NCBI RefSeq assembly: GCF_027946175.1
Contig: NZ_AP026671.1
Location: forward strand, 496,001-560,000
Direction of reading: 5' to 3'
Length of the DNA stretch: 64,000 nucleotides
Source of the DNA: Nitratiruptor tergarcus DSM 16512
Lineage (GTDB): Bacteria > Campylobacterota > Campylobacteria > Campylobacterales > Nitratiruptoraceae
Shown here: positions 7,056 to 54,807 of the stretch, one piece after another
How the letters are laid out: every line of letters begins with the position of its first letter
Position numbering within the stretch: position 1 is the stretch's first letter
Made by a program: the position numbers and the translations under genes
Notes under the pieces: generated by a model
What the model was told of the DNA's origin: nothing
What the model saw: only the letters and a program-made list of their open reading frames with translations
Databases searched by the model: none

Positions 7056-7697
7056 ATGGATTCTTTGCCGCTTCTATTAATCTTTTGGTATGGAATATTA
7101 CACGCTTTTGGTCCAGATCACCTTACAGCCATTACCGATTTTAGTATTGGTAAAAGCAAAAAGAAAACAATGCTAATCACACTCGCTTTTGCTATAGGAC
7201 ATGGGGTATCTCTTTTTATCTTTGCAAAAATTTTACAGCATATCGATATTAGCAAAACAATTCTTGCATGGGGTGATTACGCCAGCTCAAGCGTAATTAT
7301 TGCAATTGGTCTTTTCTTGCTTTTTATGGCATTGACTGGTCGTATCAATGTAGGATGGCACGAACATGACGGCAAAAAGCATATTCATATATGGTATGGC
7401 AAAAAGCATGGGCATGGTGAAAAAAAACAAGTAACATCTGCTTTGACAGTTGGTACGCTTATGGGAATTGGTGGTGTGCGAGGTATGCTGGTTACGCTGA
7501 GTGCTATCGCTCATCATGAAGTGAACTTGATGATGGTCGCTAGTTTTACGATTGGTGTAATGCTGGTCTTTTTAATGTTTGGGTATTTTATATCTTTAAT
7601 CAATGAGAATCTACTTAAAACACAAAAAAATATACGGGTAGCGTTTGCTACAGCGGGAGCAATCTCGTTGATAGTTGGAACAAATATGTTTATCTAA
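7056..7697 (+). CDS. Nickel/cobalt transporter, probable nickel supply for hydrogenase
   Basis: Integral membrane protein of about 213 residues with six or so hydrophobic segments. The first carries HAFGPDH, the His-X4-Asp-His signature of NiCoT/RcnA/UreH-type nickel carriers, and a cytoplasmic-type loop near residues 100-125 is rich in His and Lys (HEHDGKKHIHIWYGKKHGHG), as expected for metal handling. The ATG at 7056 is chosen because AAGGA (7044-7048) sits 7 bp before it; an upstream in-frame ATG at 6933 would add an unlikely leader running through the promoter. hypB begins 9 bp after the stop, which strongly suggests nickel import for hydrogenase. An exporter role cannot be excluded from sequence. 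Confidence 0.85.
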   Translation: MDSLPLLLIFWYGILHAFGPDHLTAITDFSIGKSKKKTMLITLAFAIGHGVSLFIFAKILQHIDISKTILAWGDYASSSVIIAIGLFLLFMALTGRINVGWHEHDGKKHIHIWYGKKHGHGEKKQVTSALTVGTLMGIGGVRGMLVTLSAIAHHEVNLMMVASFTIGVMLVFLMFGYFISLINENLLKTQKNIRVAFATAGAISLIVGTNMFI

Positions 7698-7706
7698 GGA
7701 GTCAAA

Positions 7707-8444
7707 ATGTGCAAAGATTGCGGATGTAGTATAACTGAACACCATCACCATCATGATCACAAACATGAGCTTCATACAAATCCCCAGCTAAATGATACAA
7801 AAACGATTGAAGTGATTACAAAAATCTTGGATAAAAATGATCATGAAGCAGCCCACAACAGGGCTCATTTTGATAAAGCCGGTGTTTTGGCAATCAATCT
7901 CATGAGCAGTCCTGGAAGTGGTAAGACTTCGCTTTTAGAGAAGTTAGCTGAAATAGATAGATTCAAATTTGCAGTGATTGAAGGAGATTTGGAAACAAAC
8001 AGGGATGCAGATCGTATCAGAGCAAAAGGGATTCAAGCTTACCAGATCACTACAGGAAGCGCATGTCATCTGGATGCTTTTATGGTACATGATGGATTAC
8101 ATCATATAGATTTAAGTGATATTGATGTCTGCTTTATCGAAAATGTTGGCAATTTGGTTTGTCCTGCAAGTTATGATGTAGGAGCACATCTCAATATCGT
8201 TTTAGTCAGTGTTCCCGAAGGAGATGACAAGATAGAAAAGTATCCGGTGATGTTTCGACAAGCAGATCTTGTACTCATTACAAAAACAGATCTTTTGCCA
8301 TACTTTGATTTTGACGTGCAAAAAGCCAAAAAGAGAGCAAGAAGACTCAAACCAAATGTTGATATTTTGGAAGTCTCTACAAAAGATGAAGAGTCTATAA
8401 AAAGAGTGGCTCAGTGGATTATATTTAAAAAGGAGATGCGCTGA
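7707..8444 (+). CDS. hypB: Hydrogenase nickel-incorporation GTPase HypB
   Basis: SIMIBI-class GTPase that works with HypA to load nickel into the hydrogenase large-subunit precursor. The N-terminus has a CxxCGC high-affinity nickel motif (C2, C5, C7) and then a His-rich stretch (HHHHHDHKHELH, residues 12-23) that may store nickel. Walker A is SSPGSGKT at 67-74; GDLETNRDADR follows near 98; the G-domain metal site Cys/His are present (GSACHLDAF); the base-specificity motif is TKTD. Length 245. AAGGAG-type ribosome binding site just upstream; the TGA overlaps the hypC ATG. Confidence 0.97.
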   Translation: MCKDCGCSITEHHHHHDHKHELHTNPQLNDTKTIEVITKILDKNDHEAAHNRAHFDKAGVLAINLMSSPGSGKTSLLEKLAEIDRFKFAVIEGDLETNRDADRIRAKGIQAYQITTGSACHLDAFMVHDGLHHIDLSDIDVCFIENVGNLVCPASYDVGAHLNIVLVSVPEGDDKIEKYPVMFRQADLVLITKTDLLPYFDFDVQKAKKRARRLKPNVDILEVSTKDEESIKRVAQWIIFKKEMR

Positions 8445-19233: not shown

Positions 19234-20427
19234 ATGCATCCACACGACTTTTTCTTAATAATCCTTATAATTCTATTTAGTGCTCGACTTTTTGGTGAAA
19301 TTTTTAGAAAACTATCTATGCCCCCTGTTTTGGGCGAACTTTTTGCTGGTATTCTTCTTGGTCCTTCAGTGTTTGGGATTGTTGAACTGAATGAAGTTAT
19401 CAAACTTTTAGCTGAAATTGGAATTATTTTGCTGCTTTTTGAAGTTGGACTAGAAACAGATCTCAAGCGATTAATAAAAACAGGATGGATGTCTGCATTT
19501 GTGGCAGTTGCAGGTTTTGTTTTGCCTTTTATATTTGGAACAGCACTCTCATACTATCTTTTTGGTTTTGATATTGTGGTATCTATGTTTATAGGCGGTA
19601 CAATTACAGCAACAAGTATCGGCATAACGGTACGAGTTTTACAAGATTTGAAAAAAAGAGATTCAGTTGAGGGTGAAATAGTTGTAGGTGCAGCAGTTCT
19701 TGACGATTTACTGGGTGTAATTTTACTTGCTATTTTATATGAGTTTTCAAGTACTGGGAATGTAAGTCTTATAAATGTTTCAAAAGTCTTTTTATTTATA
19801 GTTGGATTTTTTATAATTGCTCCGATAGCAGCAAAAATTATTGCATTTTTGATAAAAAAATATCACGATACCAATGAGATACCAGGACTTTTACCAACTT
19901 CTGTTTTTATGCTTGTGCTGTTTTTTGCTTGGTTTGCCAAAAAGATTGGAAGTCCAGAGATAATAGGGGGATTTGCAGCAGGTCTTGCACTCTCTCGTAG
20001 ATTTTTTCTCCCTTTTGGTGTCGCTTTGTCTTATGATGTGAAGTTTTCGCAAAAACTCGAAGCCGAAATTATGCCACTGGTCTATCTTTTTACCCCTTTT
20101 TTCTTTGTTGCAGTGGGACTATCTATGAATCTCAAAGAGATTGCTTGGGATGAGCCGCAGATTTGGTATCTATTTGGAACTATATTTTTAATAGCAGTTA
20201 TTGGTAAAATTTTAGGAGCTCTTTTTTTACCGCTCACACTCAAAAAGAGATTTATTGTTGGTGTTTCTATGATACCAAGAGGTGAGGTAGGACTCATTTT
20301 TGCTGAAATGGGAAGAGTTTCAAATATATTAGATAATATGACGTATGCTGCTTTAGTTTTGGTGATAGTGGTTACCACTGTCATACCGCCATTTATTATA
20401 AAATATCTATACAGAGGTGAGATATGA
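19234..20427 (+). CDS. CPA2-family cation:proton antiporter (Kef/Nap-type membrane domain)
   Basis: Polytopic membrane protein of 397 residues with about 12 hydrophobic segments. The N-terminal segment MPPVLGELFAGILLGPS and AEIGIILLLFEVGLETDL are hallmarks of the CPA2 exchanger family, as is VLDDLLGVILLAIL near residue 155, whose Asp pair forms the ion site, and GLALSRRFFLPFG. There is no C-terminal RCK/TrkA-N domain, so it is shorter than full KefB/KefC. It may exchange Na+ or K+ for H+. It is joined to the S4 gene directly and to trpD by a 4-bp overlap, a grouping without obvious functional logic. Confidence 0.9.
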   Translation: MHPHDFFLIILIILFSARLFGEIFRKLSMPPVLGELFAGILLGPSVFGIVELNEVIKLLAEIGIILLLFEVGLETDLKRLIKTGWMSAFVAVAGFVLPFIFGTALSYYLFGFDIVVSMFIGGTITATSIGITVRVLQDLKKRDSVEGEIVVGAAVLDDLLGVILLAILYEFSSTGNVSLINVSKVFLFIVGFFIIAPIAAKIIAFLIKKYHDTNEIPGLLPTSVFMLVLFFAWFAKKIGSPEIIGGFAAGLALSRRFFLPFGVALSYDVKFSQKLEAEIMPLVYLFTPFFFVAVGLSMNLKEIAWDEPQIWYLFGTIFLIAVIGKILGALFLPLTLKKRFIVGVSMIPRGEVGLIFAEMGRVSNILDNMTYAALVLVIVVTTVIPPFIIKYLYRGEI

Positions 20428-52217: not shown

Positions 52218-52220
52218 TAC

Positions 52221-52255
52221 AACAGCCTACCTTTTTTTGGTAGGTTGTTAATTTG
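52221..52255 (+). terminator. Terminator after clpB
   Basis: AACAGCCTACC (52221-52231) pairs with GGTAGGTTGTT (52239-52249) over 11 bp including one G-U pair, with a 7-T loop, starting 3 bp after the clpB stop. AATTTGT follows. A good stem with a modest T-tract. The remaining ~100 bp to the next gene is AT-rich; TAAAAT (52321-52326) is a weak -10 candidate. Confidence 0.6.
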
Positions 52256-52362
52256 TAACAATCTTAGTAATTTACCTCTTCTATAGTTTGAATACTCCAC
52301 TTTAAAGCTCTCTTTCTATGTAAAATCTAAATAATATTATTTTTATAAACTGAGGAATTTGT

Positions 52363-53853
52363 ATGGAGATTCTTCGTATATTTTTTCGAGATTTAAAAAA
52401 CTCTTTTCAAGATCTCTTGCCAATTGTTGTAGTTGTTGCAATTTTTCAATTTTTTATTATTGGACAGGTTCCTCAAAACTCCCTCTCAATCGTTATAGGT
52501 CTTATCATAGTTGCTTTTGGACTAGCTGTATTTATACGAGGCTTGGAGCTTGGAATATTTCCTATCGGCGAAAATCTTGCAATTGAGTTTGCTAAAAAAG
52601 GTAGTCTCTTTTGGCTTTTGCTTTTTGCATTTTTGATTGGATTTTCAACAACGATTGCTGAACCAGCCCTTATTGCTATAGCGCAAAAATCTGAAGTTAT
52701 TAGTCAAGGGAAAATTGATGCATTTATTTTGAGGCTTACAGTAGCGCTTTCTGTTGGTTTTGCTATAGCTTTAGGAGTTTTTAGAATTGTTGTTGGTCAT
52801 CCTATTCAATATTATATTATTGTAGGGTATATATTGGTTGTAGTTCTTACCTTCCTTGCGCCTAAAGAGATTGTTGGGCTTGCATACGATAGTGGAGGTG
52901 TAACAACTTCTACGGTTACCGTTCCTCTGGTTGCAGCTCTTGGAATTGGGCTTGCTACTAGTATTAAAGGGAGAAATCCAGTAATTGATGGATTTGGACT
53001 TATCGCTTTTGCTTCTTTAACGCCTATGATATTTGTCCAAATTTATGGAATAATCGCTTCGCACTTTGGCTCCCAAAATACTGAGATAATCACAATTGCA
53101 AAAGCTATAACCCAAGAAGTTGTTGAAGAGAGTCATTTTGATATAAAAAAGATATTTTTTGATTTAATCGCTGTTGTGAAAGACATTTTGCCAATTTTGG
53201 GTGTAATTTTCTTTTTTCAATACATAATTATTAAAAGACCACTACCACATTTGCATAAAATATCTTTTGGGATACTTTTAGTTATCATTGGACTCTATGC
53301 CTTTATCTTAGGACTTGAGATTGGACTTTTTCCAATAGGTGAGACACTTGCATTTCAACTCACCTCTACAGGAAAGATATTTTTGATATATCTCTTTGCT
53401 TTTTTAATCGGCTTTTCTACAACTATGGCTGAGCCTGCACTCTTAGCCATAGCTATCAAAGCGCAAGAGGTGAGTGAAAATAGAATCAACTCCTTACTTC
53501 TAAGAGTCTTTGTAGCTTTAGGAGTTGCAATTGGAATAGCTTTGGGAGCATATAGAATTGTAACAGGCGGAGAGATCCACTACTACATTATTGTAGGATA
53601 TATTGTTGTTATAGTTCTAACATATTTTGCACCAAAATATATTATTCCAATAGCGTATGATAGCGGAGGTGTTACAACATCTACTGTTACAGTGCCATTG
53701 GTAGCTGCTCTTGGTTTAGGTCTTGCACAAAATATTCCAGGAAGAGATCCTATGATTGATGGATTTGGGCTTATAGCGTTTGCTTCGCTTTTTCCAATGA
53801 TTACTGTTATGGGATATGGAATATATGCTGAATTTAAAAGAAAGGAAAACTGA
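52363..53853 (+). CDS. DUF1538 polytopic membrane protein with internal duplication (putative transporter)
   Basis: 496 residues, strongly hydrophobic, made of two halves (about 12-235 and 260-490). Each half repeats, in order: GLELGIFPIGENLAIEF / GLEIGLFPIGETLAFQL; GFSTTIAEPALIAIA / GFSTTMAEPALLAIA; YYIIVGYILVVVLTFLAPK / YYIIVGYIVVIVLTYFAPK; YDSGGVTTSTVTVPLVAALG in both; and VIDGFGLIAFASL / MIDGFGLIAFASL. Such tandem repeats are the design of many transporters. DUF1538 has no assigned function that I know. The stop overlaps the PII-like gene by one base, and a CBS-domain gene follows, suggesting ligand-controlled transport. GAGGA precedes the ATG. Confidence 0.9.
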   Translation: MEILRIFFRDLKNSFQDLLPIVVVVAIFQFFIIGQVPQNSLSIVIGLIIVAFGLAVFIRGLELGIFPIGENLAIEFAKKGSLFWLLLFAFLIGFSTTIAEPALIAIAQKSEVISQGKIDAFILRLTVALSVGFAIALGVFRIVVGHPIQYYIIVGYILVVVLTFLAPKEIVGLAYDSGGVTTSTVTVPLVAALGIGLATSIKGRNPVIDGFGLIAFASLTPMIFVQIYGIIASHFGSQNTEIITIAKAITQEVVEESHFDIKKIFFDLIAVVKDILPILGVIFFFQYIIIKRPLPHLHKISFGILLVIIGLYAFILGLEIGLFPIGETLAFQLTSTGKIFLIYLFAFLIGFSTTMAEPALLAIAIKAQEVSENRINSLLLRVFVALGVAIGIALGAYRIVTGGEIHYYIIVGYIVVIVLTYFAPKYIIPIAYDSGGVTTSTVTVPLVAALGLGLAQNIPGRDPMIDGFGLIAFASLFPMITVMGYGIYAEFKRKEN

Positions 53854-54203
53854 TGAAATTTGTAGCACTTGTTGCAATTATTCCAAATGAGATGGAAGAG
53901 AAGGGAGTAGAGATTGCTAAAAATGCCGGTGCTGGAGCTGTGACAATAATAAGTGGCAAAAATATTGGGCTTAAAGAGAAAAAGATTTTTTTTGGAGTCA
54001 CTTTGGAAGAAGCTATGTCAATTTTACTCTTTATTTTGCCAAGAAAACTCTCTTTGAAAGTTTTGCGAGCATTGAAAAATGAATTGAATGTTGAAGATAC
54101 CGAAAATAGTTCTATTATTTTTACTCTTCCTTTAGAGCATGTTGTAGGAATCAATAAGGAAGAATTGCATAAGTTTGAGAGTGAAATTAAGACGATTCTT
54201 TAG
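53853..54203 (+). CDS. PII-like small regulatory protein
   Basis: 116 residues with a PII/GlnB-like fold predicted from the start: MKFVALVAIIPNEMEEKGVEIAKNAGAGAVTIISGKN matches the beta-alpha-beta beginning of PII (where GAGAVTI replaces GxxGxT-like region), FILPRKLSLKVLRALKNEL supplies the second alpha helix, and IFTLPLEHVVGINKEEL the last strand. The T-loop uridylylation Tyr and the usual PII signatures are not seen, so it is a PII-like protein, not GlnB. It is translated directly after the DUF1538 protein (shared base), implying that it regulates it. Confidence 0.8.
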   Translation: MKFVALVAIIPNEMEEKGVEIAKNAGAGAVTIISGKNIGLKEKKIFFGVTLEEAMSILLFILPRKLSLKVLRALKNELNVEDTENSSIIFTLPLEHVVGINKEELHKFESEIKTIL

Positions 54204-54222
54204 ATTTTAAAAAGGAGATCCA

Positions 54223-54612
54223 ATGTTAGTCGAAGAGATTATGACACCAAAAGAAAAGCTTATAATTGTAGATCAATTAGATTCGGTGAGAAAAGCTCTT
54301 GAGCTAATGAAGAAGCATAATATTAAATCTGTAATTGTCGATAAAAATTCACCTAATGGTGCTTATGGACTTTTGACATTCAAAAATATCCTCCAAGCAA
54401 TTGTTGCTCAGGAAGGGGATATCGATCTTTTAAATGTTTATGATATAGCAACAATTCCGGCTATTAGTGTGACAAGAAAACTAGAAATGAGGTATGTTGC
54501 AAAAATGATGGTAAGCCATAGTATCAAAAGAGTTTTAGTTGTAGATGATAATGAATTATATGGAATAATCACAATGAGCGATATTATTGGTGTTTTATTG
54601 GAAGACATTTAA
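54223..54612 (+). CDS. Tandem CBS-domain protein
   Basis: 129 residues, consisting of two CBS motifs (roughly 1-62 and 65-129): MLVEEIMTPKEKLIIVDQLD at the start and the classic VDDNELYGIITMSDIIGVLL at the end. Pairs of CBS motifs bind adenine nucleotides or other ligands. It follows the PII-like gene after 19 bp with AAAGGAG before the ATG. Together with the DUF1538 and PII-like genes it could form an energy- or nucleotide-sensing module. Confidence 0.88.
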   Translation: MLVEEIMTPKEKLIIVDQLDSVRKALELMKKHNIKSVIVDKNSPNGAYGLLTFKNILQAIVAQEGDIDLLNVYDIATIPAISVTRKLEMRYVAKMMVSHSIKRVLVVDDNELYGIITMSDIIGVLLEDI

Positions 54613-54672
54613 AAGAATTTAAGCTCTTTTTTAGTAAACTTAACCACCAAAATTTTATCTTAAAGGATTCGA

Positions 54673-54807
54673 ATGAAAAGAACATATCAACCGCATAATA
54701 CGAGAAGAAAAAGAACGCACGGTTTTAGAGTAAGAATGAGAAGTAAAAATGGTAGAAAAGTTATAAATGCAAGACGTGCAAAAGGTAGAAAAAGATTGGC
54801 AGTATAA
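54673..54807 (+). CDS. rpmH: Ribosomal protein L34
   Basis: 44-residue ribosomal protein of the 50S subunit, with [19 protein letters not shown] at the start and [11 protein letters not shown] at the end, the invariable L34 termini. It is too short to stand out but unmistakable. AAAGGA lies upstream (54662-54667). It leads the conserved rpmH-rnpA-yidD-yidC-jag-mnmE cluster. The 60 bp before it is AT-rich and may hold a promoter, but no box is convincing. Confidence 0.97.

Follow-up and report, generated by a model that had tools for sequence, protein, structure and literature searches.

A DUF1538 membrane protein of Nitratiruptor tergarcus and its PII-like partner: a putative UmpAB-type cation/proton antiporter under proposed PII control

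Introduction

What does a membrane protein of the DUF1538 family do beside a PII-like protein and a tandem-CBS protein, and does the pairing recur outside a single genome? The locus that raises this question lies in a stretch of 64,000 nucleotides of Nitratiruptor tergarcus DSM 16512 (contig NZ_AP026671.1, positions 496,001 to 560,000 of the forward strand), hereafter called the window. The best-known roles of PII proteins lie in carbon and nitrogen regulation. In this study, we describe the locus, survey the pairing across genomes and weigh the possible substrates and modes of control.

Results

Layout of the locus

The module occupies the plus strand of the clpB-rpmH interval (52218-54673) and consists of three genes: a DUF1538 membrane protein of 496 aa, UmpA-UmpB-like and fused (52363..53853; open reading frame, Pfam and predicted structure), a PII-like protein of 116 aa from a DUF1538-associated subfamily (53853..54203; open reading frame, profile and fold) and a tandem-CBS protein of 129 aa (54223..54612; open reading frame and Pfam). 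The TGA of the DUF1538 gene (53851-53853) gives its A to the ATG of the PII-like gene, and the CBS gene follows after a gap of 19 bp, thus the open reading frame coordinates bear out the packing, the size of the membrane protein, the shared base and the gap given in an earlier note made from the sequence alone. A promoter scan returned matches no more frequent than in shuffled sequence.

The two-repeat membrane protein

DUF1538 (PF07556) matched the membrane protein twice, at 465.4 bits against a cut-off of 22.6 (E 2e-140). The two halves are 57% identical across the aligned region, and the motifs GFSTT[IM]AEPAL, YDSGGVTTSTVTVPLVAALG and IDGFGLIAFASL are each present once per half, which upholds the earlier description of a two-repeat, transporter-like protein with shared motifs. 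In repeat 1, GFSTTIAEPAL covers residues 93-103 (52639..52671, plus strand), and YDSGGVTTSTVTVPLVAALG covers residues 175-194 (52885..52944, plus strand); their counterparts in repeat 2 are GFSTTMAEPAL at residues 350-360 (53410..53442, plus strand) and YDSGGVTTSTVTVPLVAALG at residues 432-451 (53656..53715, plus strand), and the third motif lies at residues 208-219 and 465-476. Four pairs of charged residues, E100/E357, D176/D433, D209/D466 and R141/R398, are invariant in 39 aligned DUF1538 sequences, as are P101 and P358, and the invariance of the charged set extends to Bacillota homologues at 27-28% identity.

The predicted model (pLDDT 80) has about seven helical elements per half, two of which are broken at or beside the repeated motifs, first at AEP (99-101 and 356-358) and then just after DSGG (181-185 and 438-442), so that the E and the first D of each half sit at or near helix breaks. 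This would be the arrangement commonly seen at the ion sites of secondary transporters. No solved structure related to DUF1538 by sequence was found, and no solved transporter fold matched the model confidently; a VcINDY-like carrier fold was rejected since its matches were weak and not significant (E 0.007, TM 0.2). No DUF1538 relatives were found in viral contigs and a PHROGs search gave nothing; five 'phage' records do match DUF1538, all of them unannotated and four from faecal samples.

Relationship to UmpAB and the likely substrate

The earlier note held the substrate of DUF1538 proteins to be unknown, a statement outdated by published work on UmpA and UmpB of Halomonas zhaodongensis, two DUF1538 proteins that form a heterodimer and jointly act as a Na+(Li+,K+)/H+ antiporter with an exchange optimum at pH 9, as demonstrated in E. 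coli KNabc and in everted vesicles (PMC5484666). The N-terminal half of the window protein scores 292.6 bits with UmpA and 211.6 with UmpB, and the C-terminal half 264.4 bits with UmpB and 228.8 with UmpA; the window protein therefore reads as an UmpA-UmpB fusion, matching the umpA-umpB gene order. Each half stays below its NCBIfam equivalog cut-off (NF041627 for UmpA, 490 bits; NF041628 for UmpB, 500 bits), and calling the full protein an UmpA equivalog was rejected because the passing score is a sum over two stretches. With the halves well under the cut-offs, we make no claim that the protein is a proven UmpAB equivalog. The invariant E, D, D and R do agree with the charged residues conserved according to the UmpAB paper, a comparison of residue kinds and not of positions. 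By analogy with this homologue, the window protein is putatively a monovalent cation (Na+, Li+, K+)/proton antiporter. It is not the sole candidate antiporter of N. tergarcus, since the genome encodes four CPA-type Na+/H+ exchangers (PF00999); one of these lies in the window at 19273-20403.

The DUF1538-PII pairing across genomes

The earlier note also proposed that DUF1538 has its own PII-like partner, and a survey of gene neighbourhoods strongly upheld this. Among 397 Campylobacterota genomes searched with a DUF1538 profile and a profile of the PII subfamily, full DUF1538 genes occur in 86 and the PII subfamily in exactly the same 86, at 94 copies of each; Fisher's test gives p about 1e-89 for this co-occurrence, a value that overstates independence owing to the kinship of the genomes. 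Two further genomes hold only a weak DUF1538 fragment. When 80 DUF1538 loci were inspected, PII was a separate next gene in 60, a C-terminal fusion in 18 and missing in two, so that 78 of the 80 have it. One of the two PII-less loci is a contig end (L077); in the other (L026), a TnpB-like frame at 7524-7910, apparently a transposon insertion, stands in the expected PII place straight after DUF1538, and the contig ends soon after. In the tree of loci, the fusion of transporter and PII has a single origin (12 rows, clade support 100/100). Pairwise identities of DUF1538 and PII correlate (r 0.86), as expected of co-inheritance.

The pairing extends to other phyla. PII lies downstream of DUF1538 in 7/7 plasmid loci inspected (Alphaproteobacteria and Bacillota), the order in Methylocystis and Chelativorans is a split umpA-umpB-PII, and in Vescimonas, Paraclostridium, Peptoclostridium, Acetoanaerobium and Subdoligranulum the PII gene following DUF1538 is about twice as long. 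Bacillota partners of DUF1538 of about 217-222 aa (L116:5361-6029, L117, L118 and L119) apparently comprise two PII units, of which the first is too divergent for Pfam. In genome G332, extra DUF1538 copies (L148:2483-5045 and L149:1940-4349) have long N-terminal extensions and are followed by a PII gene and then by a second small ORF that is PII-like in look and has no Pfam match. No report of a link between PII and DUF1538, or between PII and an antiporter, was found in the literature searched, with subscription papers outside that scope; the pairing is broad and apparently unpublished.

A divergent PII-like protein

With the P-II Pfam model (PF00543) the window protein scores 17.1 bits, below the cut-off of 25, and its relatives L065, L113, L116 and L149 pass at 29.8-49.2 bits. 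A PII profile search matched PII chains (E 2e-8), and Foldseek placed the predicted monomer with SbtB, CPII and GlnK (prob 1.00, TM 0.5-0.8); the PII fold is confirmed to the extent that this predicted model matches PII structures, and on that model the protein is a member of the PII superfamily. Compared with the two GlnK proteins of the same genome, it has no B-loop DGK and no C-loop RxR, and its T-loop is six residues shorter. Across the subfamily, including aligned Bacillota and Alphaproteobacteria members, DGK is replaced by SSI, HGI, KGL or NGI and RxR by GI or GL. Since the canonical nucleotide residues are missing, its ligand is probably bound in another way than in GlnB/GlnK.

The T-loop is the target-binding element of PII proteins and docks on the transporter in both SbtB-SbtA and GlnK-AmtB (PMC10117731). 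In the window protein it spans residues 36-54 (53958..54014, plus strand) and is the most conserved region in separate homologues (0.88, against 0.70 elsewhere; p 4e-4), with conservation dropping to 0.66 in fused PIIs. A T-loop conserved when the PII is separate and relaxed when it is fused is what T-loop docking would predict, which makes it indirect evidence for docking.

Given such a fold, it might be supposed that the DUF1538 protein moves bicarbonate or another carbon or nitrogen solute for autotrophy and is PII-gated like SbtA-SbtB or AmtB-GlnK; the earlier note had named bicarbonate and a nitrogen compound among its candidates. SbtB and CPII are among the nearest solved structures of the PII fold, and many module hosts belong to lineages of Campylobacterota and Aquificota that are rich in autotrophs. 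However, the same pair is present in the fermentative heterotrophs Paraclostridium, Peptoclostridium and Subdoligranulum, the canonical GlnKs of N. tergarcus sit with amtB in two operons apart from the module, no carbon-fixation gene adjoins the module among the window ORFs, and the PII-like protein is encoded not with SbtA or carboxysome genes but with DUF1538. With the published homologue UmpAB being a cation/H+ antiporter (PMC5484666), we consider a carbon or nitrogen substrate unlikely.

A sub-variant of the antiporter reading is that the PII-like protein itself senses a cation or pH instead of adenylates and feeds back on the antiporter, with CBS giving an energy signal. The replacement of DGK and RxR throughout the subfamily would fit this, as would a partner that, by analogy, moves H+ and Na+. 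On the other hand, no ion-site evidence was found in the PII-like protein, and SbtB and CPII bind adenylates, so that this protein may bind nucleotides too; we regard direct ion sensing as a rather doubtful variant.

The CBS protein as an accessory

The CBS domain (PF00571) matched the third protein twice (E 6e-19); the T-x-x-D motif, as part of G-x-x-T-x-x-D, is kept in the second CBS only, the first having N. The earlier note took CBS pairs to sense adenine nucleotides, and the protein is by inference a likely adenylate sensor. It misses all NCBIfam cut-offs for small tandem-CBS proteins, and c-di-AMP was rejected as an unlikely ligand in N. tergarcus, whose genome was found to have no diadenylate cyclase (DAC) domain.

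A CBS gene follows PII in 60/60 loci with a separate PII and in 0/18 fused loci. In Campylobacterota it occurs in 47/397 genomes, all DUF1538-positive, and lies no more than 150 bp from a separate PII in 44 of the 47 (238 bp in one more). The earlier note counted CBS as a partner of the transporter, which holds for separate-PII loci of Campylobacterota and Hydrogenothermaceae, the only groups in which it is a regular partner, and fails in all 18 fused loci and in the DUF1538-PII examples from Bacillota and Alphaproteobacteria, from which the CBS gene is absent. CBS is thus an accessory of one architecture and not a core part. In genome G115 (L150:1777-4598), GAF-domain proteins lie directly on both sides of the DUF1538-PII pair and CBS is absent, an arrangement that looks like a swap of the sensory input, GAF in place of CBS. 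In genome G203 (L147:3441-6001), the CBS gene is far from its DUF1538-PII pair and near a reading frame whose start resembles the RuvC-I motif of Cas9.

A dispensable CBS gene, displaced in one genome, would suit a reading in which the genes adjoin mainly because they are co-transcribed or share a role in stress, with PII and CBS making no contact with the transporter. Against this stand the transporter-PII fusion, the matching copy numbers across the 86 genomes and the conserved T-loop, and we hold the reading to be very improbable.

History of the locus

A genome from another genus of the same family (G257) carries the module at the same clpB-rpmH site with proteins 92-95% identical to those of the window, whereas the downstream genes of the two are much less alike (rnpA 49%, yidC 68% and mnmE 71% identical). 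Three genus-mates examined are without the module at the clpB-rpmH site, and DUF1538 was found in 0/6 genus-mates of the phylum sample. This suggests either horizontal transfer or repeated or differential loss, both of which fit.

Discussion

We propose, as the explanation that we find reasonably probable, that the module is an UmpAB-type cation/proton antiporter with a dedicated PII-like regulator, to which CBS would add an optional adenylate signal. Much as GlnK acts on AmtB and SbtB acts on SbtA, the PII-like protein, as a putative trimer, would bind the cytoplasmic side of the antiporter through its T-loops and turn its activity on or off, and the tandem-CBS protein, likely as an adenylate sensor, would be an extra input on the PII-transporter pair. 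UmpAB works in E. coli in the absence of its PII, and transport therefore does not depend on PII; umpB is the last ORF of the cloned Halomonas fragment, and PII and CBS are absent from the paper's text (PMC5484666). Against this explanation also count the equivalog cut-offs missed by each half and the lack of a confident match to a solved transporter fold. PII could moreover act elsewhere, for example on CBS or another target, and CBS could have a structural role instead of serving as an adenylate input.

PII-gated transporters are already known as a kind, and the DUF1538-PII pairing adds to that kind; the pairing suggests that this exchanger is gated as ammonium or bicarbonate transporters are. 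If so, the reach of PII control would include the pH and salt balance of bacteria from vents and the sea and of clostridia from the gut. The PII subfamily would be the putative regulator for the only studied DUF1538 antiporter family, unreported by the UmpAB authors (PMC5484666), and the natural fused and separate forms make a ready experimental pair. A wider and more tentative possibility is that DUF1538 antiporters in general are cation/proton exchangers gated by PII, in which a PII that has lost canonical nucleotide sensing would read a new signal (an ion, pH or an unrecognised metabolite) and in which CBS, GAF proteins or a second PII domain would be exchangeable side inputs that differ by lineage.

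Among known systems, the models of small stand-alone CBS proteins such as CbpA/CbpB and HhpR resemble the CBS protein in their tandem CBS architecture, but the window protein reaches none of the NCBIfam cut-offs and its genome is without a DAC domain. The module resembles SbtA-SbtB in that the gene of a PII-like protein with the same ferredoxin-like PII fold adjoins that of its membrane transporter, but its transporter is DUF1538, not SbtA, and its family has fused forms, a CBS partner and a wide spread in heterotrophs. With AmtB-GlnK it shares the pairing of a transporter and a PII gene and the paradigm of T-loop docking; the module PII differs in that it lacks the canonical DGK and RIR and has a T-loop shorter by six residues, and two amtB-glnK pairs exist separately in the same genome. 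UmpAB of Halomonas belongs to the same Pfam family and has two homologous 7-helix halves, the same kinds of conserved charged residues and the same half order; the version in the window differs from it in its PII-like and CBS partners, unmentioned for UmpAB (PMC5484666), and in being a single fused chain.
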